A stretch of DNA of 64,000 nt, from assembly GCF_030499575.1 (NCBI RefSeq), contig NZ_JASTLC010000001.1, positions 2,070,001 through 2,134,000 on the forward strand, given 5' to 3'. Of the stretch, positions 17,131-42,010 are shown piece after piece. The position numbers and the translations under genes were made by a program. Under the pieces are notes generated by a model. It made no database searches and was not told the origin of the DNA. It saw only the letters and a program-made list of their open reading frames with translations. Positions within the stretch are counted from its first letter, which is position 1. Each line of letters begins with the position of its first letter. The stretch is from Streptomyces sp. DG2A-72. GTDB lineage: Bacteria > Actinomycetota > Actinomycetes > Streptomycetales > Streptomycetaceae.

Positions 17131-17164
17131 GTCACGGCGAGGCGATCGTCACGGCGAAGCGATC
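17131..17164. repeat. 17-bp tandem duplication
   Basis: GTCACGGCGAGGCGATC (17131-17147) is followed directly by GTCACGGCGAAGCGATC (17148-17164), one mismatch; the second copy covers the stop codon of the 39-residue gene. Confidence 0.9.
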
Positions 17165-17268
17165 GTCGCGATGATGGCGATGATCACGAAGATGGCGAAG
17201 AACGAGCCGAAGACGAGGAGCATCTTCTTCTGGCCGTTCTGCGGGTTCGGGTCGAGCACTGGCGACAT
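17149..17268 (-). CDS. SGM_5486-type transporter-associated small membrane protein
   Basis: A 39-residue protein read from ATG 17268 to TGA 17149-17151: an N-terminal polar segment SPVLDPNPQNGQKK, then one hydrophobic helix (LLVFGSFFAIFVIIAIIATI) to the end. The sequence matches what I know as the SGM_5486 transporter-associated family, found downstream of CynX/NimT MFS genes in streptomycetes. It begins 49 bases after the MFS stop on the same strand, so it is probably the second gene of that operon and may act as a small subunit of the transporter. Confidence 0.85.
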   Translation of the reverse strand: MSPVLDPNPQNGQKKMLLVFGSFFAIFVIIAIIATIASP

Positions 17269-17317
17269 GCGCCCAGTGTCGCACCCGTCGAACAGGCCCG
17301 GTCTGCGGGGGTGGGGC

Positions 17318-20659: not shown

Positions 20660-20664
20660 GGTGA

Positions 20665-21946: not shown

Positions 21947-22227
21947 CGGTAGTCCTCCTCGCGCTCCGCGAGGAGGGTGGCGAGCGGATCGACGTCGTCG
22001 GGTACGTCGTAGCGCGGCATGCCATGGCGGTCGGCCGCCGTGTACTCGGGCAGCCTGATCTTGCCCTCCGCCACGAGGTGCGCGTATCGCTGCATAGGGC
22101 TTTCCGCCGGGGTCACTATGGCGATGACGTTGCCATGGCGGGTGACCTCGACGGTCTCCCCCTTCTCCACGCGGGCGAAGACGGCGCTGGGATTGTAGGA
22201 GAACTCACGGACGGAAACGGCGCTCAT
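21943..22227 (-). CDS. Phd/YefM-family antitoxin
   Basis: 94 residues from ATG 22227 (AAGGAG seven bases upstream). N-terminal Phd fold: AVSVREFSYNPSAVFARVEKGETVEVTRHGNVIAIVTPA, which dimerises and binds the operator; the C-terminal half (RLPEYTAADRHGMPRYDVPDD...REEDYR) is the flexible toxin-neutralising part. It is the first gene of the coupled pair and probably autoregulates through an inverted repeat upstream. Confidence 0.9.
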   Translation of the reverse strand: MSAVSVREFSYNPSAVFARVEKGETVEVTRHGNVIAIVTPAESPMQRYAHLVAEGKIRLPEYTAADRHGMPRYDVPDDVDPLATLLAEREEDYR

Positions 22228-22259
22228 GACGGGCTCCTTCGCTGCGGCAGGGCACAGCA

Positions 22260-22283
22260 CATTGTGCCTACATCTCTACAATG
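22260..22283. promoter_or_regulatory. Inverted repeat CATTGT-N12-ACAATG upstream of the antitoxin
   Basis: Arms at 22260-22265 and 22278-22283, 33-56 bases before the antitoxin start, in the only AT-rich patch of this intergenic region. Position fits a Phd operator. Confidence 0.5.
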
Positions 22284-22349
22284 GTACCCACATCACTGAG
22301 GGTGTTCAGGTGATCTTCCGGGAGGTGCCGGCGCTGCCGCATCGCCTGT

Positions 22350-23483: not shown

Positions 23484-23562
23484 GCTTCCTCAACTTAGCG
23501 GCAGGCAAGGGAGACACGCATTCCTCCTCGGAGTGAGCGAACACCAGGGAGGCTGTCAGGAG

Positions 23563-24834
23563 TCACGGCGTCGGAGCCGCCGACTCCGTCCGGATGCGGA
23601 GCAGTACGCCGGCCAGCTCCCCTATTCGGGCGCGCAACTCCCGGTACGGCAGAGAGAGGTCGACCACGTGGCAGTACAGCCGGATCACCTGGCCAGCCAC
23701 AGGCACCTCCATGACGTTCTCGTTCCCAGCGGCCGATACGAGGTGCCCTTCGCTGGTCCCGAGGCGTACGCAGTAGGCGAACATCTGGTACAGGTCGGGC
23801 CGTTTCGTACCGTCCTTGTATTTGGCATCGACGATGATTGCCGGGACGAGTCGGCGGCCCCCGTCAGGGGGTGGCAGATAGTGGATGAGATCAGGCTTCA
23901 GCAGTTCCTTCTTGCCCAGGTCGAGGTGGTGGTCCCGGTCGCGGGGCTCAGCACGGCCGCCGGCTCGGCGCTGGAGTTCCTCGCCCAGGGCGGTGGCAAG
24001 GAACGTCTCGAACACCCGCCACATCTCCAGCAGCAGACCATCGACGAGGACGCGGCGGCCGTCGTCGAGTTCGTACGACGCGCCGCGCAGGATCAGCTCG
24101 GCGAGGCCGAGGGCCCGTTGGTAGCGGCTGTTGAGCCGGGTCGCCGTCCAAGCGGGCAGCGGCGCTCCCGGCCGTGGCGCGGTTACTCCGTCCAGCTGGG
24201 CAACGATTCTGCGCAGCCTGGCTCTGAGAGTGGGATCGAGTCCTGGGAGTCTGATCAGACGGCGAGCGGCCCCGAGCAGGAGGCGATTCTCGCCGATGTC
24301 GGGTGTGTGGTCGTCGTAGGTGACTTCCAGGGGCAGGGAGAGGCCGGGACGGCGGCGCAGCTGGGCCGGGGCGCGTAGTCGGCCGCGCAGCATCGGAAGG
24401 GTGTCGTCGACCTCGCGGTAGCCGAGCAGTACGCCGGGCCGCAGCGCGCGATCCGCGGCCTCGGTGAAGGCATAGCCGACCGCTGGCAGCAGTTCGTGGC
24501 GGGCCCCGGCTTCAACCGGCTCGTCCGACCATTTGGCGTGTCCCGAGGCGTAGGCCAGGAGATAGAGGAGCCGGTCCACAGGGATCTTGGGAGCGATGCG
24601 CAGCTGTACGGCGGAGTCGTCGCCGCCGAGCCTGACTCCCCCGACCATGGCTTTGGCTCGAAGCTCGTAGCGATCCCTGGTGCCCTTCTTCTGGCGTCCC
24701 GCGGGTTTGATGTCGACGAGTTTCGAGGCACGCTCCCCCGTCAGGACGTGCGCCTGCCCTGGAGTGAGGGTCCAGGTGCTCCAGCCCGCGCCCTCGTCGA
24801 GGTCGATCCGGGCGAGGGCGGGTGGGGTGGTCAT
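23563..24834 (-). CDS. McrC-like 5-methylcytosine restriction endonuclease subunit
   Basis: 423 residues. The C-terminal PD-(D/E)xK nuclease is visible: E-rich helix (VFETFLATALGEEL), then KPDLIHYL (about 312) and AIIVDAKYK (about 330-338), as in the McrBC 5-methylcytosine restriction family. The N-terminal part (1-120) carries LRIAPKIPVDRLLYLLAYASG, also conserved in McrC. Its start overlaps the McrB-like stop (ATGA, 24831-24834), so the subunits are made together. McrC supplies the cutting activity; McrB supplies GTP-driven translocation and site recognition. Confidence 0.9.
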   Translation of the reverse strand: MTTPPALARIDLDEGAGWSTWTLTPGQAHVLTGERASKLVDIKPAGRQKKGTRDRYELRAKAMVGGVRLGGDDSAVQLRIAPKIPVDRLLYLLAYASGHAKWSDEPVEAGARHELLPAVGYAFTEAADRALRPGVLLGYREVDDTLPMLRGRLRAPAQLRRRPGLSLPLEVTYDDHTPDIGENRLLLGAARRLIRLPGLDPTLRARLRRIVAQLDGVTAPRPGAPLPAWTATRLNSRYQRALGLAELILRGASYELDDGRRVLVDGLLLEMWRVFETFLATALGEELQRRAGGRAEPRDRDHHLDLGKKELLKPDLIHYLPPPDGGRRLVPAIIVDAKYKDGTKRPDLYQMFAYCVRLGTSEGHLVSAAGNENVMEVPVAGQVIRLYCHVVDLSLPYRELRARIGELAGVLLRIRTESAAPTP

Positions 24835-27098
24835 GCGTCGGCCGGGGTCGGTTCGTCATTGCCCGCAACCGGGGAAGCGGCTGCGAGGTCGGCCGGTGCC
24901 TGACTCGGAATCGGAACCGGCTCCGGGATCGGGGGAAGTTCTTCGCGCAGCGAGGCCAAGCCGTACTGGGCGTTGATGTCGATGTCGTCACCCCAGTGGT
25001 AGTCGGCGAGCAGGGGCAGGATCTGGGTCCGCCAGAGCCGATCGAGTGCCGCCGGGCCGGTGTGCACGGCGGGCCGCATGAAGTACGAGGGCCCGATGCG
25101 GAAGTCCCGGTCGCCGGAGGGGTTTTCGCCGATGCGTTCGTTCAGCGCGTCGAGTAGCAGCGCGGCCTCCTGGGACAGCTCCTTCTTCTCCAGCCAGCGG
25201 GACAGCATGGAAGCGGTCGGGTCGGTGCTCGGGTGGAGTTCCATGAAGGAGAAGCGGCGGCGCATGGCCGCGTCCATCAGGGCGATGGAGCGGTCGGAGG
25301 TGTTCATGGTGCCGAGGATCACCAGGTTGGGCGGGAGCCTGAAGCGGCGTCCCTCGTCCGAGCCGTAGAGGAGGTGGACGAACTCCTTGCGGTATTCGAG
25401 GAGGAAGTAGAGCTCACCGAACACCTTCGCGAGATTGCCGCGGTTGATCTCGTCGATGACCAGGACGAAGACCTCGGCGGGGCGTCGGCGGGCGGCGTTC
25501 GCCAGCCGCTTCAGAGGGCCTTCGACGAGGTCGAAGGCGATGCCGGAGCCGGTGTCGGTCTGCCCTCGGCCGTCACGCTTGCCTGTGCTGTCGGTGGGCG
25601 CGGCACGTACGGCCCGCGGCCTGAAGCCTTCGAAGAAGTCTTCGTAGGAGTAGGCCGGGTGGAACTGAACCAGACGGAAGTTGGCTTCGCGCCCCGCGGT
25701 GAGGTGTCGGGCCAGGGCGAGAGCCGTGTAGGTCTTGCCGGTGCCGGGCGGCCCGTGGAAGATCAACTGGGGCCGGTCCCGGAGCAGTTCCACGCATTCC
25801 TGGAGCCAGAATGGGTCTTCCATGGTCAGCTCGTCTGCGAGCTCCTGGGTGGCATCGGGCAGCTCGGCCGTCTCGGAGCCCTCCGTGGGCGCCTGGTCCG
25901 GTTCCTCGTCGAGCAGGACCTCCAAGTCCCCGGTGAATTCGGTCAGTTCGACCAGCCGTAGATCGGGGTTGCCGAGCGGGCCCTCCATCTCCCTGGGCAG
26001 ATGCCGGTACAGGTCGAAGGGAGCGTCCAGGTTGCTCCAGCTCACGGTGCGCTGGAGGGTGGCGCCACCGCCTCCGGAGATCTGCTGGGCGGGGCCGGTG
26101 ATCGTGCCGAGGTAGGTGTCGCTGCCGTCGGTGGTGACCACGATGTCGCCCTCCCGCATGCGGGACAGGAAGGTGTGGAACTCCGTGGCGGTCTGTACGC
26201 GCAGGTTCTGGCTCAGGCTTGAGTATGCCTCGTCGACGACCTCCTGTACCCGCTCGGGGCCGGCACCCTCATCGAGGGTCGGCAACCGGTCGGCGGGCAC
26301 GGAACAGATGCCTTTCTCCTGCCAAAGCCCGTTGATCAGGCTGCTGCCCCGGCTGTCGTCGCCGCGGACCAGCCAGGCCCGGCGTGGCGGCTCCGCGTCG
26401 ACGGCGACGTCGCCCCGCGCGGGAACCAGGTCCTTGATCTCCGAAGGTTCGAGGGCCCGGTCCAGCAGTGCGCGCACCGCGCTCGCGCTGGACGCGGGTT
26501 CGTCGTAGACACCGTCCCTCACGAGCAGGTTGCGCCACTCGTCGAGTTCCACGGGAGAGAGTCCCAGCTCCTCGGAAACCTCCCCGTCCGCCCCAAGGGC
26601 GAGGTGCCATCCCTCGGGGCGGGGCCCCAGCAGCCAGGGGAGCAGGAAATCCACGTCCAGCCCGTGGTGCTCCGCCAGATCGGTGACCCGGATCCACTTG
26701 CCGGTGTCGGGAAGCGCCGCGAGCGTCTCCGCGACGGCTTCGAAGGCCGCGCGCTCGCTGTCCCAGTAGCCGTAGGACTCCCGCGCTTGCAAGAGGAAAT
26801 CCACCGCGTCGAACTCTTCGAGCGCCTTACGGCCGGGGCCCGTGAGCCGCCATTGCCGTCCGGTCTTGCGTAGCCAGCCGGCCTTGCCGAGGTTGATGCT
26901 CTCGTAACGGAGCCGCTTCTCGACCGCGGTCTCCACCTCGGGGAAGGCCGCGTGCCAGTCGGCTTCCAGATCGGGATCCTCCGCCTGGACAAGCTCCCAG
27001 ACCTGCCGGAACGCGAGACCGTGCCCTTCCGGCTGCCGCGCCAGGATCCGCGCGGCCACCTGCACCACGCGCGCCGTGAGATCGAATGCGGTGGTCAT
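24831..27098 (-). CDS. McrB-like AAA+ GTPase with Mrr-type N-terminal winged helix
   Basis: 755 residues, ATG 27098 after GGGGGGAG. Residues 5-95 read as a winged-helix Mrr N-terminal domain (GLAFRQVWELVQAEDPDLEADWHAAFPEVE...GKAGWLRKTGRQWRLTGPGRKALEEF). Around 320-370, MREGDIVVTTDGSDTYLGTITG...RTVSWSN resembles the small beta-barrel used for reading modified DNA. The motor (about 420-690) has Walker A GPPGTGKT (near 447), Walker B FVLVIDEINRGN and the McrB signature MNTSDRSI (near 596). The Pro-rich end is variable. Together with the overlapping nuclease it forms a type IV, modification-dependent restriction system. Confidence 0.9.
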   Translation of the reverse strand: MTTAFDLTARVVQVAARILARQPEGHGLAFRQVWELVQAEDPDLEADWHAAFPEVETAVEKRLRYESINLGKAGWLRKTGRQWRLTGPGRKALEEFDAVDFLLQARESYGYWDSERAAFEAVAETLAALPDTGKWIRVTDLAEHHGLDVDFLLPWLLGPRPEGWHLALGADGEVSEELGLSPVELDEWRNLLVRDGVYDEPASSASAVRALLDRALEPSEIKDLVPARGDVAVDAEPPRRAWLVRGDDSRGSSLINGLWQEKGICSVPADRLPTLDEGAGPERVQEVVDEAYSSLSQNLRVQTATEFHTFLSRMREGDIVVTTDGSDTYLGTITGPAQQISGGGGATLQRTVSWSNLDAPFDLYRHLPREMEGPLGNPDLRLVELTEFTGDLEVLLDEEPDQAPTEGSETAELPDATQELADELTMEDPFWLQECVELLRDRPQLIFHGPPGTGKTYTALALARHLTAGREANFRLVQFHPAYSYEDFFEGFRPRAVRAAPTDSTGKRDGRGQTDTGSGIAFDLVEGPLKRLANAARRRPAEVFVLVIDEINRGNLAKVFGELYFLLEYRKEFVHLLYGSDEGRRFRLPPNLVILGTMNTSDRSIALMDAAMRRRFSFMELHPSTDPTASMLSRWLEKKELSQEAALLLDALNERIGENPSGDRDFRIGPSYFMRPAVHTGPAALDRLWRTQILPLLADYHWGDDIDINAQYGLASLREELPPIPEPVPIPSQAPADLAAASPVAGNDEPTPADA

Positions 27099-27165
27099 GG
27101 ACTCCCCCCTTGTCCCCTTGTTGTCCCCGTACCGGCGTACCGGCCTCGCGAGATCAACTGCCAGT

Positions 27166-27195
27166 GTCGTACAAGATATCGGCGACCACTGACAA
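27166..27195 (-). promoter_or_regulatory. Candidate promoter of the McrBC-like operon
   Basis: On the minus strand TTGTCA (27195-27190) is followed after 18 bases by TACGAC (27171-27166), 67 bases before the start codon. No other gene lies in 27099-27263. Confidence 0.45.
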
Positions 27196-27263
27196 TTCCC
27201 CGGCCAGGTGTGTTGCCGCAGGTCAGGAACAGTTCGAGTCGCTTACGGCGGAGGCTCGACCGA

Positions 27264-27791
27264 TCAGGCGGGGCAGCCCGTCGGGACCCGGCACCGGATC
27301 TGCTTCCCGATCGGCGACCGGCACACATGCCACCCCGGTGCAAGCAGGTCCAGCAGCCCCAGCCCACGCCCCGACTCGGCCTCCGGGTCGTGCAGCGCGA
27401 TCCCGCGCGGCCTCGGAAGTACGCGCGGGTCCGGGTCGTGCACGTTGACCGCAATCCCGAAGCTGGCCACGTACACCTCCACCACCAGCGGTACGTGATC
27501 CCCGCAGGCCCGCACCGAATTGCCGACCAACTCCGAGACGACCAACTGGGCGGTCTCGGCGGCCTCCGTGTCGGCGCCGTAGTCCGCCAGCACCTTGACG
27601 ATCAGCCCGCGCAGGAGGCGAAAGGCGTCGGCGGACGCGCTGAGGTGCGCGGCGAAGCCCTGGTTGCGGTGGCGGACGTAGAGGCCCGGGGCGGGCGGAG
27701 GGAGAGGGTGGATGAGTCGGGGGTCCGGGTCTTCGTCGGGGTCGCGATGGTTGGTGGGGGCGGGAAGGCGGGTTTGGGTGGGGTCGGGCAT
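27264..27791 (-). CDS. ATP-binding protein (HATPase_c, anti-sigma-factor/SpoIIAB type)
   Basis: 175 residues. ATG 27791 has GGAGGTCCC directly upstream, whereas ATG 27887 has no site. After a disordered Pro-rich N-terminus the Bergerat fold follows (about 60-170): N-box ELVGNSVRAC, G1 region HDPDPRVLP and G2 GRGLGLLDLL. Such short ATP-binding proteins occur in streptomycetes beside XRE/DUF397 pairs (abaA- and whiJ-like loci), where they tune development and antibiotic production. It is divergent from the XRE gene. Confidence 0.85.
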   Translation of the reverse strand: MPDPTQTRLPAPTNHRDPDEDPDPRLIHPLPPPAPGLYVRHRNQGFAAHLSASADAFRLLRGLIVKVLADYGADTEAAETAQLVVSELVGNSVRACGDHVPLVVEVYVASFGIAVNVHDPDPRVLPRPRGIALHDPEAESGRGLGLLDLLAPGWHVCRSPIGKQIRCRVPTGCPA

Positions 27792-27899
27792 GGGACCTCC
27801 GGCCTGGGATGTGCGCGGGTGCGCGTTGGGCGTTCCGCCGCTGCGCGGGCAAGTGGCCTTCAACGGCGCCTCCTTGAGGTCGAGCATGCAGCTCGAACG

Positions 27900-27914
27900 A
27901 CTTGATTCGCAAGT
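27900..27914. promoter_or_regulatory. Inverted repeat ACTTG-ATTCG-CAAGT
   Basis: Perfect 5-5-5 repeat between the divergent HATPase and XRE genes, in a markedly AT-rich stretch; a further GACTTGCA lies at 27953-27960. A likely site for the XRE protein encoded alongside. Confidence 0.5.
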
Positions 27915-27986
27915 TTGTCACCTGAATTGATGGCTGGACAGTTTGTTCTATCGACTTGCACAACAGCCGAGTGGAAGACTCCCGAC

Positions 27987-28856
27987 ATGCCAAACGTGCG
28001 CCCCGTACCTACTGTCCGACGCCGACGCCTCGGCGAAGCCCTCCGCCGCTACCGGAACGCCGCCGGGCTGACACTCGACGCGGCAGCCGAGGTCATGGGG
28101 TGGATCGGCCCCAAGCTGTCCCGGATCGAGACGGCGAACGCCCACATCCGGCCCGCTGAGGTGTCGCCCCTACTGAAGGCGTACGGCATCGACGACCCCG
28201 AGGTGATCAACGCTCTGGAAGGGCTGGCCAAGGACGCCCGCAAGCAGGGCTGGTGGCAGACGTACAGCGGAATCGTGTCGCCCAGCTACGCGGACTACAT
28301 CTCGTTGGAATCCGATGCCGAGAGCGTCCACGAGTTCGCCCCGCTCCTGATCCCCGGCCTTTTGCAAACCGCCGCGTACGCGCGCGAGACCATTGCTGCC
28401 AACGCCATCACCCGCGCGCCCGAGGAAGTCGCCGCCCTCGCGGAGGTCCGCCAGGCCCGCCAGGCGGTACTCACTCGGACCGGGCACCCCTTGAAGGTGT
28501 GGGCAGTCATTCACGAGGCCGTCCTGCATCAGCGTTTCGCCGTGCGCCCCAACACTACGCGCGACCAGCTACGACGCCTGCTGGACGTCTCCGAGATGCC
28601 CAACGTGACGCTTCAGGTCATGCCGCTCGACGCCACTCCCCACCCGGGAAGTGTGGGCGGCTTCAGCCTCGTCGGCTTCCCCGGCCCCATGCCGGACGTC
28701 GTGCTGCTGGAGAATCTCATCGGATCGTCTTACGTTGAAGGCATCAGCGAAGTACGCACTTTCGCCGACGCCTTCGAACGCATCGTCGCCGCTGCCCTGC
28801 CGACCGATGATTCGTTGGCCCTGATCGCCCGGATGGAAGAGAGACAACGTAAGTGA
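27987..28856 (+). CDS. XRE-family regulator with Scr1-type (DUF5753) domain
   Basis: 289 residues from ATG 27987. Helix-turn-helix at about 18-75 (LGEALRRYRNAAGLTLDAAAEVMGWIGPKLSRIETANAHI), followed by the Scr1/DUF5753 domain (about 95-280: YISLESDAESVHEFAPLLIPGLLQTAAYARE, MPNVTLQVMPLDATPHPGSVGGFSL). These pairs with DUF397 proteins behave as WhiJ-like developmental regulators and have been described as toxin-antitoxin-like in streptomycetes. The stop overlaps the DUF397 start by four bases (GTGA). Confidence 0.92.
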   Translation: MPNVRPVPTVRRRRLGEALRRYRNAAGLTLDAAAEVMGWIGPKLSRIETANAHIRPAEVSPLLKAYGIDDPEVINALEGLAKDARKQGWWQTYSGIVSPSYADYISLESDAESVHEFAPLLIPGLLQTAAYARETIAANAITRAPEEVAALAEVRQARQAVLTRTGHPLKVWAVIHEAVLHQRFAVRPNTTRDQLRRLLDVSEMPNVTLQVMPLDATPHPGSVGGFSLVGFPGPMPDVVLLENLIGSSYVEGISEVRTFADAFERIVAAALPTDDSLALIARMEERQRK

Positions 28857-29077
28857 ACGACGAGCGCAAGGCGGAGCTGTACGCCCACGACCTCTCGGCA
28901 GCCGTCTGGTGTAAGGCGTCCGCCAGCGGCGGCGAGGGCAACTGCGTCGAAGTCGCCGACCTCCCCGGCGGCGGCAAAGCCGTGCGTGACTCGAAGCGGC
29001 CCCAGGTCGAGCCCTTGCGGTACACCGCGTCCGAGTGGGCCGCGTTCCGCGAGGGCGTGATCTCCGGGGAACTCTGA
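28853..29077 (+). CDS. DUF397 protein, partner of the XRE regulator
   Basis: 74 residues, GTG 28853. Contains the DUF397 signature: WCKASASGGEGNCVEVADL followed by AVRDSKRP and YTASEWAAFREGV. DUF397 proteins bind and modulate the cognate Scr1/WhiJ-type regulator. It is coupled to the XRE gene and ends just before an 18-bp hairpin that separates it from the methyltransferase gene. Confidence 0.93.
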   Translation: MNDERKAELYAHDLSAAVWCKASASGGEGNCVEVADLPGGGKAVRDSKRPQVEPLRYTASEWAAFREGVISGEL

Positions 29078-29090
29078 CCCGATGCGCCGC

Positions 29091-29136
29091 ACGCCGATGG
29101 CCGCCTCCGAGAAGTACGGGAGGCGGCCATCGGCGT
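29091..29136. terminator. Bidirectional terminator with perfect 18-bp stem
   Basis: ACGCCGATGGCCGCCTCC (29091-29108) and its exact complement (29119-29136) with a 10-base loop, between the convergent DUF397 and methyltransferase genes; it begins 13 bases after one stop and ends 3 bases before the other. Confidence 0.85.
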
Positions 29137-29139
29137 GTC

Positions 29140-32100
29140 TCAGGACCAGAAGCCGAGCTGTTCGTCGACCCCCAGCTCGGTGACACTGAACAGGCCGCCC
29201 CCGGCGTCCGGTTCGTCACTCGGCGGTCTCGCTCCGATCGGCTCGGGAGGCTGCGGGGGCTCGGGGGTGGTCCGTTCTGGCCGGGTGAGCGGACTGCGGC
29301 CCGACGCGTGGCGGGGGCCCTTGCCGGGGGGCGGCGTCATGGCCAAGTTCGTGTACGAGCCACCGGACTCGGCCGCCTTCTCCATCTCCCTGTAGATGGT
29401 GAGGATCCTGTCCTTGGTCCGCTCGAAGAGTTCCGGCGACTTGTTCCGGAACGCGCGGAAACTGTCCAGGACGAGTTCGATGTCGGCATCTGGGATGCCG
29501 TAGAGGTGGAAGTACGCGGCATCCAACTCGGCGCGGATCTCGAAGCGGCGGTCCTCGTTCCAGACGAACGGGGGGTTCTCATCTCCGAGGTGGCGGGCGA
29601 AGGGGGCCATCTCGTAGGAGGTGTAGGTGAGTTCGAGGACTCGGTCACGGATCCAGAGCTCGGGGGCACGGCCACCCAGCCATGCGACCGGATGCGCGTA
29701 GGTGTCGGGGGACAGAATCGGGAGCTGCTCCAGGTAGGTGTAAGTGAGGTGCACTCCTTGCATCTTCTGTCGAGCGGCAAAGTCCAGGACGAATGTGCTG
29801 AGGTTGGCCAGCAGCCCATGCAGTGGGCGATCCGGGCGGGTTGGCAGTATCAGAGGCATCGTGTTGCCAGCTGCAGTGCGCGGCAAGACGGTGGAGATCA
29901 CCGTTCGCTCGTCCACCGCTCGACAGATGTCACGCCACCCCAACATCCAATCGTGCGGCCACTCTGTCTCAGGTTTGCCAGGTTCCGCCTTCATCCAGTC
30001 GTCAACGTGTTCTTCCTCAACCCAGTGGCGCGGCTGAGGAGTCACCAACGGATCGGCATGTTGCTGAGCCGTCAGACGTGGAAGCGTGTTCCGCTTGAGA
30101 TCTGCCTCTGTCGCTCCAGCGTAGGTACTGAAACGAGCGTCGAGCTGGTGGATCAGCTTCGCTTCATAGAGCGGCAGGGCACGCCGACCATCACGGAAAA
30201 AGACCTGCCCGTTCGCCTCCCAGCCCTCTTCAGCCAATACGTCGGCCGAACGGAAGAGCTTCGAGTCGTCGGCCATGTGGAACATCCTCACCAAGCGCAG
30301 GGCCCACGGATTTCCCTCCGTCACCCCTCGAAGCCACAGCACTGGCGCACTCTTGTGCATGTCCTCCAGCACTCGCAGATGGTCGGGGCTTTCACACACG
30401 GGCGCTGTGCGGGTGTTCGGGTTGATACGCCGAAACCCTGCCCTGTTCAAGGTGAAGCTACGGCTGTCTAGCTGGTCAGGGCGCCGGGCGCGGAAGGCCA
30501 GTCGGACCAGTTCCTGACACTGCCGTGGGCCACTGACCGTGAACAAGCAAAAGCGGTACGAGTGATGAACATCTGGGAAGAGCTTTTCCTCGTTCTCCAT
30601 ATCCAGCACCGTCACCAACTGCCGCCGATCCACCAGATCCGCAAAGAAGTCCGACGTCGTCTTGTCCGTAGCGATCCCGGTAGGCAGCACCAGCCCCGAC
30701 ATCCCCTCCGGAGCCAGCAGCATCCGCGCCTTCTCCGCGAATACGGCGTACGTATTGACGTCCCCCTGCCCGGTCAACGGAAAGATCCCCGAGTTCCGGA
30801 GCATCAGCGTCGTACCGGCCGCTTCCCGCAACGCCACCTGGAAGCCTTCGAACAGCTCCCGCTCCCCGCGCTCCGCACTCCCCTTCAGCCCGGCGATGAG
30901 CTTCTTCCGCTCGCTCGCGTTGGACGCGTCCGCGATCTCGTCCTCCCCTCGCGCCGCGAACCACTCCTTCTCCTGGATCTTGACCCGCTCCCACGGCGGG
31001 TTGCCCAGCACACAGTCGAAGCCGCCTTGCCAACCCGTGTCGGGGTTGTGGTCGTCGTCCTCGTCGTCCTCGACGCGAAAGACGCGGGGAAACTCCAGGT
31101 GCCAGTGGAAGAAGCGGTTACGGCTGACGATCTCGTCGAGTTGCTTCTCGCCGGAGAGCCTGCGCTCGTCGTCCTCCTCTTCCGCCGTCACCACCACCGC
31201 CTCCGCCAAGTCCCCACCATCCACCAGCTGCTCAAGGACCGAACTGGTGACGGCCGCCGGAGCCTTCTCACTCTTCGGCCACAGGAACGCCGCGCACCAG
31301 GCGTCCGCGACGCGCTTGAGCCGACGCAGGTGCGGTGACTTGGCGAGGTACTCCTCGTAGGCGCGCGCGTGATCCCGCACGTTGGCCAGGGTTCGGTCCG
31401 GGAGCTTGGCCAGAGCCTCGGCCTCCAGGCGGAGTTCCGCCGTGCCCGTACGTGCCAGAGCCGCACCCATAGCCGTCTGGGTGCCCTTTCCGCCCGAGCG
31501 TTCCTTCTTGTTGGCGGCCTTCAGAGCGGTGAGGATCTTGGAGTTGTCACCGGCGAGCTTCTTGAACGCCCCGTCCGGGATTCCCTCCGCAATCAGTTTG
31601 GGGGTGGTCCCCAACAGCGCATTACCGACCTTGATGCGGTCGTCCAGATAGGCCAGCGGCTGGCCGGGCTCCAAGGACTCCAGCCACAGGGAGACCTTGG
31701 CGAGTTCCACGGCCATGGGGTTGATGTCGACACCGTGGACGCAGTGGCGTACGACGTCGGCCATCGCCGCCCGTACCTTCTCCGGGGCCGGCTCCGGCTC
31801 CCTCGTATCGAGTTCGGCGTACCGGAGCGCTATGCGGCGGGCTGCGGCGACCAGGACATGCCCGGAACCGCAAGCCGGATCCACCAGGTTGATCTTCAGT
31901 AGCTCGCGGGGGTTGCCACTCACCGCGTGCCGCTCGATGACCGGGTCGAGAGCCTGGTCCAGGAGCTTTTCGATGAGGACGGTCGGGGTGTAGTAGGCGC
32001 CAGTCGTCTTGCGTTTGTTGCCCGCGAGGGTCTGGAGCCGGAAGCGGCCGGTGGCGGGGTCTCGGCGGGGGCGGAGTTCGAGGAGGGACTCGTAGACGCT

Positions 32101-33606: not shown

Positions 33607-36600
33607 CGGGCTCCTCCGGCAGGTACGAACACGTAGACGCCGAGGCGGTCGACGGGGCCCGCGGGCGTCACGGTGATGCGGCGGGCCGCCGCGGCGCCCA
33701 GGGCACGGCCGCGTTCGCCCGCGGCCTCGCGGACGCGCAGATGGGCGGCGGCGAGCTGATCCGCCAGCTCCTGGCCGTGGTGCAGCAAGTGGTCGCGTAC
33801 TTCGGGGAGTTCGAGTTCGCCGAGGGCGCGCCTTATGGTGCGGTGCCGCAGTTCGGGCATGACGTTCCCGTCAGGAGTGGCGGCGAGCAGGGTGGCGGTC
33901 TCCTCGTCGTCCAGCCATTCGAGGCCGCCCTCGTCGTCCGGGCGCCAGGCGAGGACACGGGCGTCCTCGGCGACGAGTTCCTTGGGACGCGGGGAGTTCT
34001 TCAGGGGCAGGCTGAGCTTGAACCGGTAGCGGGCGAGCAGCAGCACGGTGTAGATGTCGACGGCCTTGCTGCGTACGACGCCGAGACGGCGGGCGGGGCG
34101 GTCCTGGTCGCGGATGGCCGGATCGAGCGCTGAGTCCAGCACGTACCGGGCGATGGCACGGACCGCCGGGTCGGTGCGGACCAGGGCCTGTTCGCCCTTG
34201 GGAACGGGCAGGTCCTCTCGGAAGACCAGCTCGCGGGGACTGCCGGCAGCGCGGGCCCGCCCCCTGGCGGCCGTGCGGGCGGCGGCGCGTCCGGTGCCCG
34301 CGGCAGCGGTGGCCTGGTCGTCGGTGTCGTAGATGCCGAGAGAGTGCCGTAGTCCCGGGGGCAGCGGGCCCGCCTGGACGGTGAATCCGGCCCCTCGGGT
34401 GTCCGTGCGGACGGGGGCGCGCAGGGCCGCCAGAGACTCCCGTGTGAAGACGGCGATGTCGCGGGGTTCGCCCAGGACCTGGCGCAGGGCGCGGATCTCG
34501 TTCTCGACGTCCTGGGGGCGCAGGGCGGAGTGGGCGAACTTGGTGGGCACCTTGGACTCGCGGTCTGCGGCGCTCTCCCATTCGCGGTGCAGTGCGTCAC
34601 GGGCCCGGCCCAGTTCCTCGTCGGTGCCGAAGTCCAAGGCCAGCTGGTCGGGGGCCACCGCCTCGGGACGGCCGCGCAGCAGCAGGCTGCGGGTGAGCGC
34701 CTGCAGGACACCTTCGCCCGCGTCGGGAACGGGGAGGGCGACGCCGGTCTGGCGGGCGATGTCCTGGTGCTTGCGGATCAGTACTTCCAGGACGATTCCG
34801 TCGATGCCGGTGTCCGTCTCGTACAGGGTGACGGCCTTCACGTTCTCGCTGCGCTGGCCGAACCGGTCGACCCGGCCCTCGCGCTGCTCGTGGCGCGTGG
34901 GGTTCCAGGACAGGTCGTAGTGGAGGACTGCGCTGAACCGCTCCTGGAGGTTGACTCCCTCGGAGAGGCAGTCGGTGGCGACCAGCACTTGGCGGCCGGA
35001 GCGGGCGGCGAGCTCGGCGATGCGCTTCTCGCGGGCCTCCGGCGGGAGATCACCGGTGACCGCCTCGACGTGGACACGGCGTTCGAGTGCCTCCGCCAGA
35101 TACCAGCGGACGTAGCGGGCGGTGGGAATGTACCGGCAGAACACGATGGGGTCGTGGCCTTCGTCGATGAGGGCGGTGACCTCGTCGACGAGGAGGCGCA
35201 GCTTGGCGTCGTGCTCGGGGCCCGCGAGGGCCACGGCGCGCTTGGCGAACGCCTTGAGATGCGGGTCCACGGGGCGGCGCTTGTCCTGGCCCGCCGTGGT
35301 CGACTCGCCTGACGTGCCGTCGGGAGCGACCGTCCCGGGCTCACCCTGCCCGACCGGTGTTTCCGGTCCGTTCGCTTCCGCGGTGGCCAAGCCATCCTCC
35401 GGTGCGAGGACCGCACCCGGTACCGCGTCCAGGCCCTCCACGGCCTCCTCGTCGGTGGTCTCCAGCACGGACTCGCGGCCGAGCCGGTCGGCCTCCTGCG
35501 GGGTGCGGGCCGCGCTGACCGCCGCCCGGGTGGTGAGGGTGGCCTCGGCGGCGTCCGGGGAGGACAGCACGCAGCGCAGCAGGGCCAGCACCGACCACCA
35601 GCTCATGCGGTTGCGCAACTCGCCATCGGTGTGACGCACTTGTTCGCGGGCGTAGCCGATGACGTCGGCCACGAATTCCGCGTACGCCGAGTCCAGGCGG
35701 TAGGGAACCTCGCGGAGCAGCCGGTCGCCGGGGAACGGAGTGTCCTCGCCGAGGAAGGACTTGATGTCGCGGCGCCTGCGCTGGACCAGGTGGCGGGCGA
35801 GGCGGTCGCGGTGTGCGGGGATCGTCGGGTCGAGGGCGGCGAGCTTCGGGTCGAGCAGTCCGGTGAGCTTGGCGAAGGCGTCGCTGTCGCCGCTGTGCGG
35901 GGTAGCGGTGACCAGGAGCAGGTGACGTCCGGGATCTTCCGCGAGTCCCTTGAGGAGTTCGTAGCGCTGCTGACGGCCGGCGCCCGCGCCGATGCATGTG
36001 TGAGCTTCGTCGACGATGAGCAAATCGGGGCAGGTACGCAGGAAGGCGTCGCGGCGCTCACGCTGCTTGATGAAGTCGGTGGAGACGATCGTGTACGGGT
36101 AGCGATCGAAGATCGTCTGGTCGGGGTCGATGATGCCTCGTTCGAGGCGGGCGGCGGTGGACGGCAGGACGAGTTCCGCATCGAGGCCGAACTTGTCGTG
36201 GAGTTCGCGCTGCCACTGCTCGGCCAGCGCGGGGGAACACAGGACGGACAGTTTGACAGCCGAGCCCTGTTCCAGGAGTTCCCTGGCGATCAGGGCGGCT
36301 TCGACGGTCTTGCCGATGCCGACGTCGTCGCCGATCAGCAGCCGTACGGTGTCCATGCGTAGGGCCACCATGAGTGGCACCAGCTGATACTGGCGTGGCT
36401 GTACGGCGATTCCGGACAGGCAGCGGAAAGGGCCCGCGCTGGACGTGGCGGTGATCCGCAGCGCGGTGCGCAGGAGGGACGCGGACGCGAAGTCCCCGAT
36501 GTCCTCCCCGCCGGGGAACAGGTCCCCGGCGGCCTCGTCGGGGTCCGGAAGCGGCGGCAGACTCGGCGCGGCGAAGCCGGGGTCGGCCGTCTCGTCGGGG

Positions 36601-36734
36601 AACAGCATGGTGTCGAACTCGCTGTCCCCGTCGAGCGGACGGGCGATCACGAAGTCGTCCGTGGTACCCGGGAGCACCACCCAGTCGCGGCCGCGGGCCG
36701 ACACCAGGGAGCCGGGGGTGTGCCGGGGGCTCAT
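33603..36734 (-). CDS. SNF2-family helicase, DrmD-like
   Basis: 1043 residues from ATG 36734, overlapping the preceding helicase stop (ATGA). An N-terminal beta-rich part (PGSLVSARGRDWVVLPG) is followed by the SF2 motor: Walker A GDDVGIGKT (about 135), DEAH in LLIVDEAHTC (about 240), VTATPHSGD, then the second RecA lobe with DCLSEGVNLQE and QREGRVDRFGQ (about 615). This order and the N-terminal PG-LV-RGR-WVVLP segment resemble DrmD of class 1 DISARM. An acidic/low-complexity stretch (about 430-520) separates the lobes. A DNA translocase acting with the coupled methyltransferase is likely. Confidence 0.87.
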   Translation of the reverse strand: MSPRHTPGSLVSARGRDWVVLPGTTDDFVIARPLDGDSEFDTMLFPDETADPGFAAPSLPPLPDPDEAAGDLFPGGEDIGDFASASLLRTALRITATSSAGPFRCLSGIAVQPRQYQLVPLMVALRMDTVRLLIGDDVGIGKTVEAALIARELLEQGSAVKLSVLCSPALAEQWQRELHDKFGLDAELVLPSTAARLERGIIDPDQTIFDRYPYTIVSTDFIKQRERRDAFLRTCPDLLIVDEAHTCIGAGAGRQQRYELLKGLAEDPGRHLLLVTATPHSGDSDAFAKLTGLLDPKLAALDPTIPAHRDRLARHLVQRRRRDIKSFLGEDTPFPGDRLLREVPYRLDSAYAEFVADVIGYAREQVRHTDGELRNRMSWWSVLALLRCVLSSPDAAEATLTTRAAVSAARTPQEADRLGRESVLETTDEEAVEGLDAVPGAVLAPEDGLATAEANGPETPVGQGEPGTVAPDGTSGESTTAGQDKRRPVDPHLKAFAKRAVALAGPEHDAKLRLLVDEVTALIDEGHDPIVFCRYIPTARYVRWYLAEALERRVHVEAVTGDLPPEAREKRIAELAARSGRQVLVATDCLSEGVNLQERFSAVLHYDLSWNPTRHEQREGRVDRFGQRSENVKAVTLYETDTGIDGIVLEVLIRKHQDIARQTGVALPVPDAGEGVLQALTRSLLLRGRPEAVAPDQLALDFGTDEELGRARDALHREWESAADRESKVPTKFAHSALRPQDVENEIRALRQVLGEPRDIAVFTRESLAALRAPVRTDTRGAGFTVQAGPLPPGLRHSLGIYDTDDQATAAAGTGRAAARTAARGRARAAGSPRELVFREDLPVPKGEQALVRTDPAVRAIARYVLDSALDPAIRDQDRPARRLGVVRSKAVDIYTVLLLARYRFKLSLPLKNSPRPKELVAEDARVLAWRPDDEGGLEWLDDEETATLLAATPDGNVMPELRHRTIRRALGELELPEVRDHLLHHGQELADQLAAAHLRVREAAGERGRALGAAAARRITVTPAGPVDRLGVYVFVPAGGAR

Positions 36735-39700
36735 CGGGTGCCTCGTCCCGGGCCGAAGACGTTCGGGTGTGCGCGCACCGTGCTGTGCCACTCCTTGTCG
36801 CTGTCACTGCCGATTTCGATCACCAGCCAGCTGCGGTTCTCCAGCCGCGTCCTGGCTCGTGTGTCGCGCGTGTCGCTCGGAGCGCTGTGACCGGGAAGGT
36901 CCAGGAAGACCGCGACGTCCGCGTCCGACAGACGGTAGACGAAGTCCGGCACCGCACGCGCCGAGGCCACCTCCTCGCTGGTGGCGTCGGGAAGCCGGTA
37001 GCCGTTCTCGCGCAGCCACCGCACGAAGTCGCCACCGCTGTCATGCGGGCTCCGGGCTGCCAGATCGGCCGCGTGCAGTATGGGGTTGGCGGCCTGCGGC
37101 TGCTGCTGGACGGCGCGGCTCTCGGCGAGGTCACGGAGCAGGTCGACCGCGGACAGCCGCCGGATGTCGGGATGGAAGCGCTGGTTGTGGTAGGTGAGCA
37201 GGCAGTCGTAGCAGCCGAACTCGCAGCGCTCCCGGGCTCCCTTGGCCTGGCCGAGGTCCGTGCCGTCGGGTTTGACGTGGATGATCTCCAGGGCCTGCTC
37301 GGCCACGGCGCCCAGCGCGTCCTCGTCGTCGTGGAGCAACCGCAGGACGCCCGCGCCGCCCTCCGCTCCCTCGACGAAGAGCATGCGTGCCCGACCGTCG
37401 GGGTCGGGGAGGTCCTCGCTGTTGAGTTCGGCGTCCTCCAGTTGGTAGTACGCCTCGATACCGCGCTCCAGGGCGTAGCGCAGGGTGACGGCGGTATGGC
37501 GGTCGACCGGCGCGGCCAGTCTCAGTACGGCGATGTTCTTGCTGTCCTGGACGTAGGGCACGACCTTGAACGTGCTGCGAGCGCTCTCGAAGGTGGCCAG
37601 GGCCTCCTGCTCCGCGGAGCTCTCCGGGCGCTCGGCCGCGGCCTTTCCCTCACTCAGCCAGCGACCGGAGACCGGGTCCAGCCAGAATCCGACATCGCTG
37701 CGGATCTTGCGTTTGCGGCGGCCCAGGTTGATCACATGGACGGCGGCGTCTCCGTACGTCAGCTCGGCGACCGCCCGTTCCGTTCCGTCGGGGGCGGGTC
37801 GTCTGATGTCGGCCGTCAGACTGCCGTGGTGGAAGCGGTAGGCCGTGCGCAGCTCGAACCCTTCCTTGAGGCGCTCCTCCTCGTCGGAGGAGATACGGCG
37901 ACGGGGCTCGGCGTACACCGTGGTGAGCTGCATGAGGCGGTTGAGGATCTGGACGAGCGGGGCGCCACAGCCCACACAGGTGTCGCGGCCCTCGCTACGC
38001 TCGTGCCAGTAGCCGCAGGCCCGGCAGACCTTGGCATCGATAGTCGCGATCTGCCCGGGGTTGTCACTGATCGGTACCTGGACGTTCGACACCGTGTAGC
38101 GGCGGCCCTCGTGGTAGATCAGGGCACCGGGGCCGAACTCGCCGATGGCGATGAACCGGGGACGCTGGATGTAGGCCCCGCGCTTCTGTCCGTACCGGCT
38201 CTCGCCGCGCTCCCCGGGAACGTACGCGGCCAGGGGTAGGCGGGGAAACGAGTAACCGGGCAGGAAGCCCTCGGAGGCGAAGTAGCGGTAGGTGTAGAAG
38301 TCGGAGAACGAGTCCTCGTGGTTGTCGGAACTCTCGTTGCGCAGCAGCTTCAGCTGGTTCTCGGCCTGGGCACGGCGAGCCTGGGCACGGCGACGGTCGC
38401 GTGAGCTACCGGACGTGTCATCGGCGAGGCGGTGCTGTTCGGCGCGCTCCTCGAAGGCCCTGCGGTACAGCCGGCGCCACCGGTCGCAGGCGGCGTCGAA
38501 GCGGCGCAGGGTATCCCGGACCCGGTCGGTGACCCAGCCGTCGTACCACCACGAGGTGGTGACGAGATCGTCCGCGAGAGGAGCGAGGAGCTCGGTGCAG
38601 CGGGCGATGGCGCGCTGCCGCGCGGTCTCGCTGTCGAGGGCGGTGGACAGCTTCGTGTGGAGGGGCAGGGGCAGCGGCTCCCCGGGCTTCCCGATAGCCC
38701 TGATGTCGATGATCTCGGTCATTGAGGAGCCCAGAGGCGCCTGGGTCTCCGCCAGCCAGACAGCCTGGACGTGCGAGCGCAGCAGGTCCTCGTTGGTGAG
38801 GTCGATCCGCGGCGGGGCGACGCTGCCGGAGACCATGAGTCCGGAACGGCGGAAGTAGTACTGGTCGTGGGCGCTGCCGGTGGAGCAGTACGTGGTGACC
38901 AGAGCGGGCTGGCCGGAACGGCCGGCCCGGCCGGAGCGCTGCGCGTAGTTGGCAGGCGTGGGTGGGACGTTGCGCATCGCCACGGCGTTGAGCTCGGCGA
39001 TGTCGACGCCCAGTTCCATGGTGGGCGAGCAGTAGAGCAGCGGCAGATCGCCGTCCCTGAAGGCGTCCTCGCGGATCTGCCGCATCGTGGACTCGACCTG
39101 GGCCGTGTGCTCCCGGGCTTCCAGACCCCCGAGTTCCGCGGCTGTCTCGCGGTAGAGATCGCGGAAGAACGGATTGACCCGCGCGGTCATCTCCGGGTCG
39201 AGGGTCTTGCGTACGGGGTCGGGCTCCGCGCTCTCTCCGTCGCCCGGCTGCCAGATCAGGGAGGAGACGCACAGCTGGCGAGCGGGACGTCCGTCCGGCC
39301 CCTCGTCCACGACGGTAAGCAGGCCGGTCCTCGTCAGCACGTCCAGCAGGTGGTGGATGACCACGTCCGCGTCGGCGACCAACATCTCCTTCCCTGCCAG
39401 CTGAGGCAGCGCCCCGAATGCTCCGGCCCTGCGGAGATAGCGTCCGTAACCACCTCGGGCACCGAAGTAGACGGCGTCCGCGGACGGGGCGCCCTTGGGT
39501 CCGGGGCCCGCGAACGCCACCCGGGAGGGAGTGCGCGGATCGTTCTCCGGGATCGCCCAGATGCCTGCCAGATGCTTCTCGCTGACGGCCACCAACTGAT
39601 CGTGGCCGAGCTTGGTGAGACGCTTCTCGTCGACGGCCAGGGCACGGCGCAGTTCGTCGAGGAGCGTGCGAGCAATCTCCTCCCGATGGGCCGGGGTGTC

Positions 39701-42010
39701 GCCCTCAAGAGCCCAGTGGGTGCCCCGCCACTCCTCCTCGTCGGAGGCGATCTCCGCGAGGGACGTGTAGTCGAAGCGGAGCAGGCCTGTCTGGGAAAGG
39801 TTGGGCATGGTCAGCCGCCAGCCCCGCTCCAGATCTGCATAGAGCCGATACGTCAGCGCCGACCGCATCGCGGACAGGCTGTCCTCAAGCTGCCGGTACT
39901 TCACTTCGGGCTTCTGCGCGAAAGCCGTCAGCGGCAGGGCCAGCGCCTCCGCGACGGCCTCGGGCAGGGTGTCGTGCCGCAGGCCTGCCGGGCCTGCCTC
40001 GCGCAGCGCCCGGTACAGCGCGCCCCTGATCTGGGTGACCTGCGCGAAGTCGTTGAAGTGTCCGGCCTGGAGGCTGGCGTCCTGGCGGTTGTCCACGAAG
40101 GTCAGCAACTTGCGGGCGCGCGGCTTGAGTTCGGGCTGTCGGCGCAGGGAACGTACGACACTGGCACTCACCAACGACACGGCGGAGCTGCGGCCCTCGG
40201 CCGAGAAGGTGGCCAGCTTGGCGAAGTCCCGTACGCGCAGCTGCTCGTAACTGACCCGGCAGCGCGGGCAGAAGCGGAAGGGGGCGGCGATCCACCAGGC
40301 ACGCAGGCCAGCCCCCGGCTCGGTGGTCACACCGTCGGGCCCTATCCACACCTCCTGGGGCAGATCACCTGAACGGCGCTGGACGACGACGCGCTGTCCG
40401 TTGTCGTCGGTCTCGACCCAACTGGCCGGAAGCCGCTCCAAGACCTCTTCCAGAGTGTCGGGCCAGGGCCGCTCCTGGTCGACGTACAAGTAGCCGTCAC
40501 CCGGCTCGGCGGGGGCGTCGGGATCCTGGCGAGCGACGTACCGCCCGGTCCGGGGGCCTCCCTCGACCGTGACGACCGGGAAGTCGTGGCCGCACTCGCG
40601 GCAGAAGGCGAGCGGGACCAGCGGCCACGCCGGGTTGCCGGGCACTCTGACCTGGTACTGGCTGGTCAGGTGCCGGGCATCCGACGGTTCGAGACTGGCG
40701 TAGACCGTGTCGCCCTTGGACAGGAACTGGTGCAGGCGGAACGCGAACAGCGGTCGGCCGGCCCGGTCCTTGGTGCGTGCCCCCGCCTCCAGCATGGTTT
40801 CGATCGCGCGGGCACAGGCGGTCTCATCCTCGTCGCACTCCTTGCGGAGGTCGACCGCCGCCGCCGGAATGGTGGTGGGGCGGCGGCGCTTGAGACGTCC
40901 GGTGCCCGCCTCCTTGTCGAGTCCGAAGGTGTCCTCGATCCAGACGGCGAGCGGATCCTGGCTAAGCGGGAGGTACGTGTCGGGCAGCTCGGCGGAATCG
41001 GTCGCGGCACGTCGTACGGCTGCGGCAAGCGCCGCACGTAGCTCGCTGTCGGGCAGTGGCCGACGACCGGGGTCGGTCGCGCGTTGCAGGCTCTCCCCGA
41101 TCACCCGGTCCGGCCGCACTGGCGTACCGAACAGGCGGCTGGCGACCTCGGACACCGTCTGACGCGTCTCGGCGAACGTCTCGGCGGTGGCCATGGTCGC
41201 CGAGGTTCCCACGCACTGAAGGCCGGGGGCCTCACAGGCATCACGCAGTCTTCGCACGAGAAGAGCGACATCGGCGCCCTGGCGCCCCCGGTAGGTGTGG
41301 AGTTCGTCCAGGACGAGGAAGCGCAGACCCTTCGCCGCCTCGATCAGCTTCTGCCGTTCCTCAGGGCGGGTGAGCAGGTACTCAAGCATCATGTAGTTGG
41401 TGAGCAGGATGTCCGGCTTACGGCTCAGCACGGACCTCTTCTGATCCTTGCGCTCCTGCCCCGTGTACCGGTCGAACGTGACCGCGCCGTGCTGCTCCGG
41501 GGGAACCCCCCAACGCAGATAGCGCTCCAGCTCGTTCCTCTGACTGTTGGCAAGCGCGTTCATCGGATAGACAACGATCGCGGAAATGCCGTCGAGGTTG
41601 GGCTCTCGCAATACCGAGTCGACGATGGGAATGAGGTAAGAGAGGCTCTTACCTGATCCCGTACCGGTCGTCAGGACGTACGACTCACGCGACCTGGCCG
41701 CCTCGATCGCCTTGCGCTGGTGGTGGTAGAGGGTGAGCGTACGGTTGCCCGCGTCCTCCGGGTCCCGCTTCTCACGGAAGTAGTAGTCCCTGCAGTCGCG
41801 GTGCAACACGTTGTCGTCGACGAGCCCGTCGACCGTTCCGCCGCTTCGGAAGTTCGGGTTGAGGGAGATCCAGGGATCGGGCCAACGGGTCTTGTCCCTG
41901 CGCTCCTCGTCGAGATGGTTCCTGATGGCCGGATCCCGCACCCATACCAAGGAGGTCGTGAAGTCGTCGTAGTCCTTGATGAGCTGCCGATGCGCTCCGA
42001 ACACGTCCAT
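36731..42010 (-). CDS. Giant DEAD/DEAH-box helicase with C-terminal DUF1998
   Basis: 1759 residues from ATG 42010; an in-frame start at 42097 would add 29 residues but has no better site. RecA lobe 1: TTGTGSGKS (about 112), LDELHTYRG (about 233), VGTSATMA. Lobe 2: YCSPTMELGVDIAELN and QRSGRAGRSGQ (about 1025). Zinc-type Cys pairs occur at FCRECGHDF, FCPRCRVSY and CRACGYWHER...CVGCGAP, and the DUF1998 signature CEFGCYDCLLTYHNQ lies near 1595. This unites in one chain what DISARM splits into DrmA and DrmB; the layout also resembles MrfA/YprA-like helicases. First gene of a three-gene coupled operon. Confidence 0.9.
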   Translation of the reverse strand: MDVFGAHRQLIKDYDDFTTSLVWVRDPAIRNHLDEERRDKTRWPDPWISLNPNFRSGGTVDGLVDDNVLHRDCRDYYFREKRDPEDAGNRTLTLYHHQRKAIEAARSRESYVLTTGTGSGKSLSYLIPIVDSVLREPNLDGISAIVVYPMNALANSQRNELERYLRWGVPPEQHGAVTFDRYTGQERKDQKRSVLSRKPDILLTNYMMLEYLLTRPEERQKLIEAAKGLRFLVLDELHTYRGRQGADVALLVRRLRDACEAPGLQCVGTSATMATAETFAETRQTVSEVASRLFGTPVRPDRVIGESLQRATDPGRRPLPDSELRAALAAAVRRAATDSAELPDTYLPLSQDPLAVWIEDTFGLDKEAGTGRLKRRRPTTIPAAAVDLRKECDEDETACARAIETMLEAGARTKDRAGRPLFAFRLHQFLSKGDTVYASLEPSDARHLTSQYQVRVPGNPAWPLVPLAFCRECGHDFPVVTVEGGPRTGRYVARQDPDAPAEPGDGYLYVDQERPWPDTLEEVLERLPASWVETDDNGQRVVVQRRSGDLPQEVWIGPDGVTTEPGAGLRAWWIAAPFRFCPRCRVSYEQLRVRDFAKLATFSAEGRSSAVSLVSASVVRSLRRQPELKPRARKLLTFVDNRQDASLQAGHFNDFAQVTQIRGALYRALREAGPAGLRHDTLPEAVAEALALPLTAFAQKPEVKYRQLEDSLSAMRSALTYRLYADLERGWRLTMPNLSQTGLLRFDYTSLAEIASDEEEWRGTHWALEGDTPAHREEIARTLLDELRRALAVDEKRLTKLGHDQLVAVSEKHLAGIWAIPENDPRTPSRVAFAGPGPKGAPSADAVYFGARGGYGRYLRRAGAFGALPQLAGKEMLVADADVVIHHLLDVLTRTGLLTVVDEGPDGRPARQLCVSSLIWQPGDGESAEPDPVRKTLDPEMTARVNPFFRDLYRETAAELGGLEAREHTAQVESTMRQIREDAFRDGDLPLLYCSPTMELGVDIAELNAVAMRNVPPTPANYAQRSGRAGRSGQPALVTTYCSTGSAHDQYYFRRSGLMVSGSVAPPRIDLTNEDLLRSHVQAVWLAETQAPLGSSMTEIIDIRAIGKPGEPLPLPLHTKLSTALDSETARQRAIARCTELLAPLADDLVTTSWWYDGWVTDRVRDTLRRFDAACDRWRRLYRRAFEERAEQHRLADDTSGSSRDRRRAQARRAQAENQLKLLRNESSDNHEDSFSDFYTYRYFASEGFLPGYSFPRLPLAAYVPGERGESRYGQKRGAYIQRPRFIAIGEFGPGALIYHEGRRYTVSNVQVPISDNPGQIATIDAKVCRACGYWHERSEGRDTCVGCGAPLVQILNRLMQLTTVYAEPRRRISSDEEERLKEGFELRTAYRFHHGSLTADIRRPAPDGTERAVAELTYGDAAVHVINLGRRKRKIRSDVGFWLDPVSGRWLSEGKAAAERPESSAEQEALATFESARSTFKVVPYVQDSKNIAVLRLAAPVDRHTAVTLRYALERGIEAYYQLEDAELNSEDLPDPDGRARMLFVEGAEGGAGVLRLLHDDEDALGAVAEQALEIIHVKPDGTDLGQAKGARERCEFGCYDCLLTYHNQRFHPDIRRLSAVDLLRDLAESRAVQQQPQAANPILHAADLAARSPHDSGGDFVRWLRENGYRLPDATSEEVASARAVPDFVYRLSDADVAVFLDLPGHSAPSDTRDTRARTRLENRSWLVIEIGSDSDKEWHSTVRAHPNVFGPGRGTR

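Follow-up and report, generated by a model that had tools for sequence, protein, structure and literature searches.

An ARMADA Type I-like cassette beside McrBC in Streptomyces sp. DG2A-72, with a Vsr-type domain that may be prone to decay next to a separate nuclease gene

The 64,000-nucleotide stretch of Streptomyces sp. DG2A-72 DNA analysed here (the window, within which all its coordinates are given) carries, between fabG- and tldD-type genes, a cassette of three genes that we relate below to the defence system ARMADA Type I, and a pair of genes encoding McrB and McrC. Our open reading frame (ORF) survey returned all five on the minus strand, with the sizes and coordinates proposed by an earlier sequence-only reading. 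The cassette comprises, first, a YprA-like helicase of 1759 residues, the ArmC equivalent (36731-42010), with Pfam matches to DEAD, Helicase_C and MZB (=DUF1998) and a C-terminal Vsr-like domain; second, a SNF2/RapA/BrxHII-like helicase of 1043 residues, the ArmA equivalent (33603-36734; Pfam SNF2-rel/Helicase_C); and third, a PglX/DrmMI-like adenine-type DNA methyltransferase of 1488 residues, the ArmB equivalent (29140-33606; Pfam Eco57I/N6_Mtase), with motifs DPACGSG and NPPW. The McrB AAA GTPase (755 residues; 24831-27098) matches AAA_5, has the motifs GPPGTGKT and MNTSD and begins with winged-helix-like and EVE-like regions, and the McrC nuclease subunit (423 residues; 23563-24834) matches McrBC (PF10117) and has the motif IVDAKYK. 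Walker, DExH, NPPW, GxG, MNTxD and D...DAK motifs were all found across the block proteins. Direct reading bore out the four-base overlaps, namely, ATGA at 36731-36734, GTGA at 33603-33606 and ATGA at 24831-24834, and the helicase-SNF2-methyltransferase genes and the McrB-McrC genes each look translationally coupled.

The McrB-McrC pair had been placed downstream of the cassette, and it is indeed a coupled pair on the same strand, but it stands apart from the cassette operon. The gap of about 2 kb holds a regulator gene with HTH_31 and DUF5753 domains on the plus strand (ORF limits 27915-28856, likely start near 27987) and a HATPase_c_2 gene on the minus strand (27264-27887), 165 bases upstream of McrB and oriented like it. 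The layout makes two transcription units likely, one for the cassette and another for McrBC with its neighbours.

Profile matches place the cassette outside the systems it resembles in part. The helicase finds its best PADLOC match in DruE3 (327 bits, versus 49 bits for the best DrmA model), the SNF2 protein in a DpdE-named model (826 bits), with 272 bits against NCBIfam DrmD, below the cut-off of 610, and the methyltransferase in DrmMI (196 bits). These mixed matches fit the description of ARMADA, which joins a YprA helicase most like that of Druantia to the SNF2 and methyltransferase partners of DISARM class 1, with a gene order in Type I that is generally helicase, SNF2, methyltransferase (Bell et al., 2025, bioRxiv preprint, PMC12458937; cited throughout from the accessible part of its text). 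Its authors predicted the Vsr domain of Type I to be active, and showed anti-phage activity for Type II. By gene set and order the locus matches ARMADA Type I, an assignment made on gene set, order and domains, the helicase trees built here including no Type II, Druantia or DISARM sequences for reference. What is shared is the succession of a YprA-like helicase, a BrxHII/SNF2-like helicase and a PglX-like methyltransferase, the DUF1998 module on the helicase chain and the Vsr-type domain at its C-terminus; what differs is that the Vsr active site appears altered in the window, whereas the preprint predicts an active one (PMC12458937), and that McrBC lies behind a regulator pair. The sequence-only reading, which spoke of DISARM, was therefore right about a DISARM-related helicase, SNF2 and methyltransferase set, but the set belongs with a separate published class. 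It was also right that the functions of DrmA and DrmB occur on one chain, DEAD, Helicase_C and MZB all lying on the 1759-residue protein in which helicase core and DUF1998 module are fused. A Pfam scan of 16 window proteins, namely, the large block genes and their neighbours, found no PLD family (drmC type).

Two other assignments were rejected. ARMADA Type II requires the order SNF2, methyltransferase, YprA, followed by a RelE-UvrD protein (ArmD); the order in the window differs, and the same 16 proteins yielded no UvrD family. Druantia was set aside because only the helicase, nearest to DruE models in PADLOC, resembles it, whereas its partners are a SNF2 protein and a methyltransferase, and no other Druantia family turned up among the six window proteins scanned with PADLOC. 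As for the McrBC pair, it shares with Type IV restriction the McrB GTPase and McrC nuclease motifs and the coupled genes, and departs from it in the N-terminal winged-helix-like and EVE-like regions of McrB and in the ARMADA linkage. Neither the cassette nor its link to McrBC is new to the literature, and the finding is mostly known in kind: a DISARM-like cassette is frequently linked with canonical McrBC (PMC12458937), and is one of two particularly prevalent associations for some McrB clades (Bell et al., 2024, PMC11090510), where, in the accessible text, the same association is deferred to a later paper and not linked to the state of a nuclease.

A scan of genome contigs with the window methyltransferase gave 39 loci, four of which, all from Streptomyces, have at least 58% methyltransferase identity and are treated here as close relatives. 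The order helicase, SNF2, methyltransferase, helix-turn-helix (HTH) regulator, HATPase, McrB, McrC is kept in all four (HTH and HATPase matches being weak in L005). Three of them also share the flanks, 88-94% identical, namely, the PmbA/TldD-type genes on one side (42262-45185, plus strand, with a Pfam match on the ORF at 43353-45185) and fabI- and fabG-type genes on the other (19892-21369, minus strand); in the fourth, L007, neither flank lies within the stretch examined. Cassette and McrBC proteins of L004 and L005 are 47-64% identical to those of the window. As part of the explanation we favour, these comparisons suggest that cassette and McrBC have been inherited as one block. Whether relatives usually carry the cassette without McrBC, which had been offered as a sign of an unrelated neighbour, receives a split answer: McrBC lies behind only 10 of the 45 loci counted below (12 under a loose rule), but behind all four in the close relatives. 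Further afield, McrBC follows ARMADA Type I in loci whose phyla we take to be Actinomycetota, Chloroflexota and Deinococcota, and in Nocardioides (L043) it is directly coupled to the cassette. Even within Streptomyces the close linkage is not general. On the Streptomyces BHT-5-2 megaplasmid (L044), McrB starts about 7 kb behind the methyltransferase. The second ARMADA Type I cassette of the DG2A-72 genome itself (L057/L058, about 3.488-3.506 Mb) has a complete Vsr site and no McrBC was found there. The methyltransferase gave no match in phage records (tblastn, E 1e-30), nor did two scans of viral contigs with helicases of relatives give a confirmed match.

Several details of these relatives may be recorded here. 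Between HATPase and McrB, L004 has two extra genes (16429-17710) of about 95 and about 300 residues, the latter with a weak HTH match; they recur at the corresponding position in L005 and L006, and neither the window nor L007 showed them. Directly behind the L044 methyltransferase are weak HTH and HATPase matches (28794-30231), and its McrB match (35978-37354) reaches the edge of the stretch. In the Deinococcus loci L046 (D. radiodurans MP1) and L049 (D. radiophilus), a gene annotated as HicA follows the methyltransferase gene; in L046 the latter is in pieces with an IS630-type element (21601-26975), McrBC still lying behind it. In L013 (15381-20797) a Ktedonobacter cassette is followed by a 1033-residue McrB-like protein and a 777-residue partner without Pfam match.

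The cassette also proved to carry a nuclease-fold domain of its own, which the sequence-only reading had not mentioned. Modelling indicates that the C-terminal piece of the helicase (residues 1598-1759; 36734-37219) holds a Vsr/EDxHD-type nuclease fold with an altered active site, in which D1689, D1704, H1708 and D1716 are present and the canonical helix Glu is absent. In McrB, the EVE-like region (residues 239-398; 25905-26384), a candidate modified-base reader, resembles part of VcaM4I. Both fold assignments rest on VIA-align of predicted models, Foldseek having given no match under E 0.001 for either and a profile of the helicase C-terminal pieces nothing useful against PDB sequences. Ratios of nonsynonymous to synonymous substitution (dN/dS) between the window and L006 are 0.10 for the helicase core, 0.11 for SNF2, 0.17 for the methyltransferase, 0.18 for McrB, 0.11 for McrC and 0.19 for HATPase, and 0.32 for the Vsr-like part, a soft figure from 104 codons.

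The state of this domain was then compared with the presence of a separate nuclease. A readable helicase C-terminus was available at 51 loci, which are not a random sample (23 from the methyltransferase scan, 26 hand-picked plasmid matches and two from DG2A-72); L036 and loci lacking such a C-terminus never entered. We counted 45, having dropped L020 and L028 (where the available sequence ends at or soon after the cassette), L069 (a helicase remnant without SNF2 or methyltransferase), and L050, L021 and L035 (less than 6 kb behind the cassette). A Vsr site was called complete when the five aligned letters were E, D, D, H, D, and incomplete otherwise; for L047 a DUF2357 gene truncated by the stretch boundary was accepted as McrC, and L013, with an McrB-like gene but no recognised McrC, counts under the loose rule only. 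A separate nuclease was found at 21 of the 23 loci with an incomplete site (McrBC at eight, HNH at 13) and at two of the 22 with a complete one (L043 and L046; four under the loose rule, which adds L013 and L044). Fisher's test gave p 2e-8 (loose, 7e-7), and Pagel's test of correlated evolution, implemented for this analysis and applied to a rapidly built helicase-core tree that excludes the C-terminus, p 5e-4 (loose, 2e-3). With L050, L021 and L035 kept (48 loci), the figures are 21/23 versus 2/25. Without the HNH loci they are 8/10 versus 2/22 (Fisher p 2e-4; loose, 4/22, p 1.5e-3), and with these loci entered as unknown Pagel's p is 0.022. Recoding the window, L006 and L007 as complete leaves an overall Fisher p of 3e-6 (loose, 5e-5). 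These comparisons suggest that the Vsr cutter built into ARMADA is prone to decay when another nuclease gene lies next to the cassette, a pattern that is the new part of this work and that we did not find in the accessible text of the ARMADA and McrBC papers. The stricter rule that McrBC implies a decayed Vsr domain was rejected, Nocardioides and D. radiodurans having both McrBC and a complete site.

Where Vsr sites are lost, the separate nuclease is McrBC in Streptomyces and Chloroflexota, and a branch made up of Proteobacteria, Campylobacterota and Akkermansia has HNH. The idea of an exchange for any separate nuclease was formed on L055, L059 and L061, which have no Vsr site and carry an annotated HNH gene behind the methyltransferase, and was then tested on further loci. 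Where Vsr loss had been seen beforehand, L060, L062, L024 and L027 all have a relative of that gene (in L024, Pfam HNH_2), and Hydrogenimonas (L052) has an HNH gene at a distance of four annotated genes, beyond the record origin (L063). Vsr loss and HNH occur together in L064 and L065; L066 has lost the Vsr site and has an insertion sequence (IS) element behind the methyltransferase, no HNH being found; and in L068 the site is complete and no separate nuclease accompanies it. Vsr sites are also lost in L067, L070 and L071, chosen after their HNH positions were known. Among 16 plasmid records with an HNH match covering at least 80% of the query, 14 show an ARMADA helicase match on the same strand whose end lies 7-10 kb before the HNH match, and the remaining two are not among the helicase matches listed. 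In the accessible main text of the ARMADA preprint, HNH occurs only in the title of a reference (PMC12458937). Two side observations belong here. A gene annotated as chromosome segregation protein SMC stands between methyltransferase and HNH in L065 (26862-28844; Mesorhizobium) and L070 (26435-28417; Agrobacterium). The Croceicoccus plasmid L071, counted as HNH, has McrB/McrC matches (3697-7830) that precede the cassette by about 6 kb, and HNH (29043-29936) follows it.

The reading we prefer, to which we give a probability of roughly 0.4, is that an ARMADA Type I cassette has been inherited with McrBC and that McrBC does at least part of its cutting. From the gene set and order, the conserved block, the Vsr-like fold with its altered site and the correlation of Vsr loss with separate nucleases, we infer the following steps. 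The methyltransferase would mark self DNA; the SNF2 and YprA-like helicases would engage unmarked phage DNA and move along it; and, because the Vsr-type nuclease fused to the helicase no longer has its full active site, the neighbouring McrBC would supply cutting at least partly, and may additionally read modified bases through its EVE-like region. The place behind the methyltransferase is taken by an HNH nuclease in a different branch of the family. The proposal that McrC supplies the cutting thus gains partial, indirect support from the decay pattern, the hand-over itself staying conjectural. It is tempting to speculate further, and we consider it somewhat short of an even chance, that ARMADA Type I serves as a chassis whose nuclease can be exchanged, in which Vsr was lost several times and a separate nuclease behind the methyltransferase took on its role, with a modification-reading enzyme such as McrBC then serving two defences. 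If so, this would bear on the coupling between the Type I helicases and DNA cutting, make the genes needed by a working ARMADA Type I predictable from sequence, account for the McrBC or HNH genes that accompany it, and allow a Type IV enzyme to be tested as the blade of a self-marking defence.

Several points weigh against the hand-over. The Vsr-like domain of the window still has D, D, H and D; McrBC, with its own regulators and reader-like region, may act alone; and contact between McrC and the ARMADA proteins is hypothetical. Some of the loci counted had also helped to shape the rule. McrBC accompanies a complete Vsr site in Nocardioides and D. radiodurans (under the loose rule, L013 and L044 too), and L029 and L066 have an incomplete site without a separate nuclease found, L029 being doubtful, its His shifted by one. 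All 13 HNH loci fall in one 14-row branch, weakly supported (61), and so may be one event. Only five independent pairs are available, of which a mean of 4.2 go the same way and 0.0 the other (sign test, median p 0.125; loose, 3.6 versus 0.5, p 0.375). With the HNH loci out and the window, L006 and L007 recoded as complete, Fisher's p is 0.019 (loose, 0.073) and Pagel's 0.15. The McrBC-only association becomes weak when relatedness is taken into account (p 0.02-0.15).

The idea of McrC as the blade competes closely with a simpler one, for which we would accept rather less than even odds: two separate, complementary layers, in which ARMADA Type I with an active Vsr hits unmarked DNA and McrBC hits modified phage DNA that evades it, the two being kept together for combined coverage and not for shared cutting. 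An analogous pairing is that of BREX with the Type IV enzyme BrxU. The likeness of the McrB EVE-like region to part of VcaM4I, the layout of McrBC and its HATPase/HTH neighbours as what looks like their own transcription unit, the D, D, H, D retained in the window, and Nocardioides and D. radiodurans, which keep both nucleases complete, all favour such a division of labour. It does not, however, predict that incomplete Vsr sites should be found mainly near another nuclease (21/23 versus 2/22). An unlikely reading is that these are mere neighbours at a defence hotspot between fabG and tldD, with no functional tie. It agrees with the 35 of 45 counted loci that have no McrBC behind the cassette (strict rule), with the PIN/Phd pair and SEC-C protein at the same site, and with the HTH/HATPase genes, and further genes in relatives, that intervene; against it stand the recurrence of McrBC behind ARMADA Type I in Actinomycetota, Chloroflexota and Deinococcota and the direct coupling in Nocardioides. 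The same association as stated in print (PMC12458937, PMC11090510) also opposes it. Finally, a plain DISARM class 1 variant is very improbable, for although the SNF2 protein and methyltransferase are relatives of DrmD and DrmMI and match their models, the helicase scores best with DruE models, a single chain replaces the separate drmA and drmB expected, the NCBIfam DrmD cut-off is missed, and the PLD nuclease DrmC was not found among the scanned proteins.

Minor observations concern the surroundings of the block and the second cassette. In the window, a PIN/Phd-type toxin-antitoxin pair (21551-22260) adjoins the McrC side, as it does in L005, and a SEC-C/TPR protein (22350-23483) lies beside McrC, as in L005 and L006. 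The second cassette (L057/L058), whose best pieces are 43-49% identical to those of the window, has its SNF2 gene in two frames, and downstream of it is a UvrD helicase (L057 5951-8128, minus strand) with an N-terminus that looks RelE-like by eye, to be compared with ArmD of Type II.
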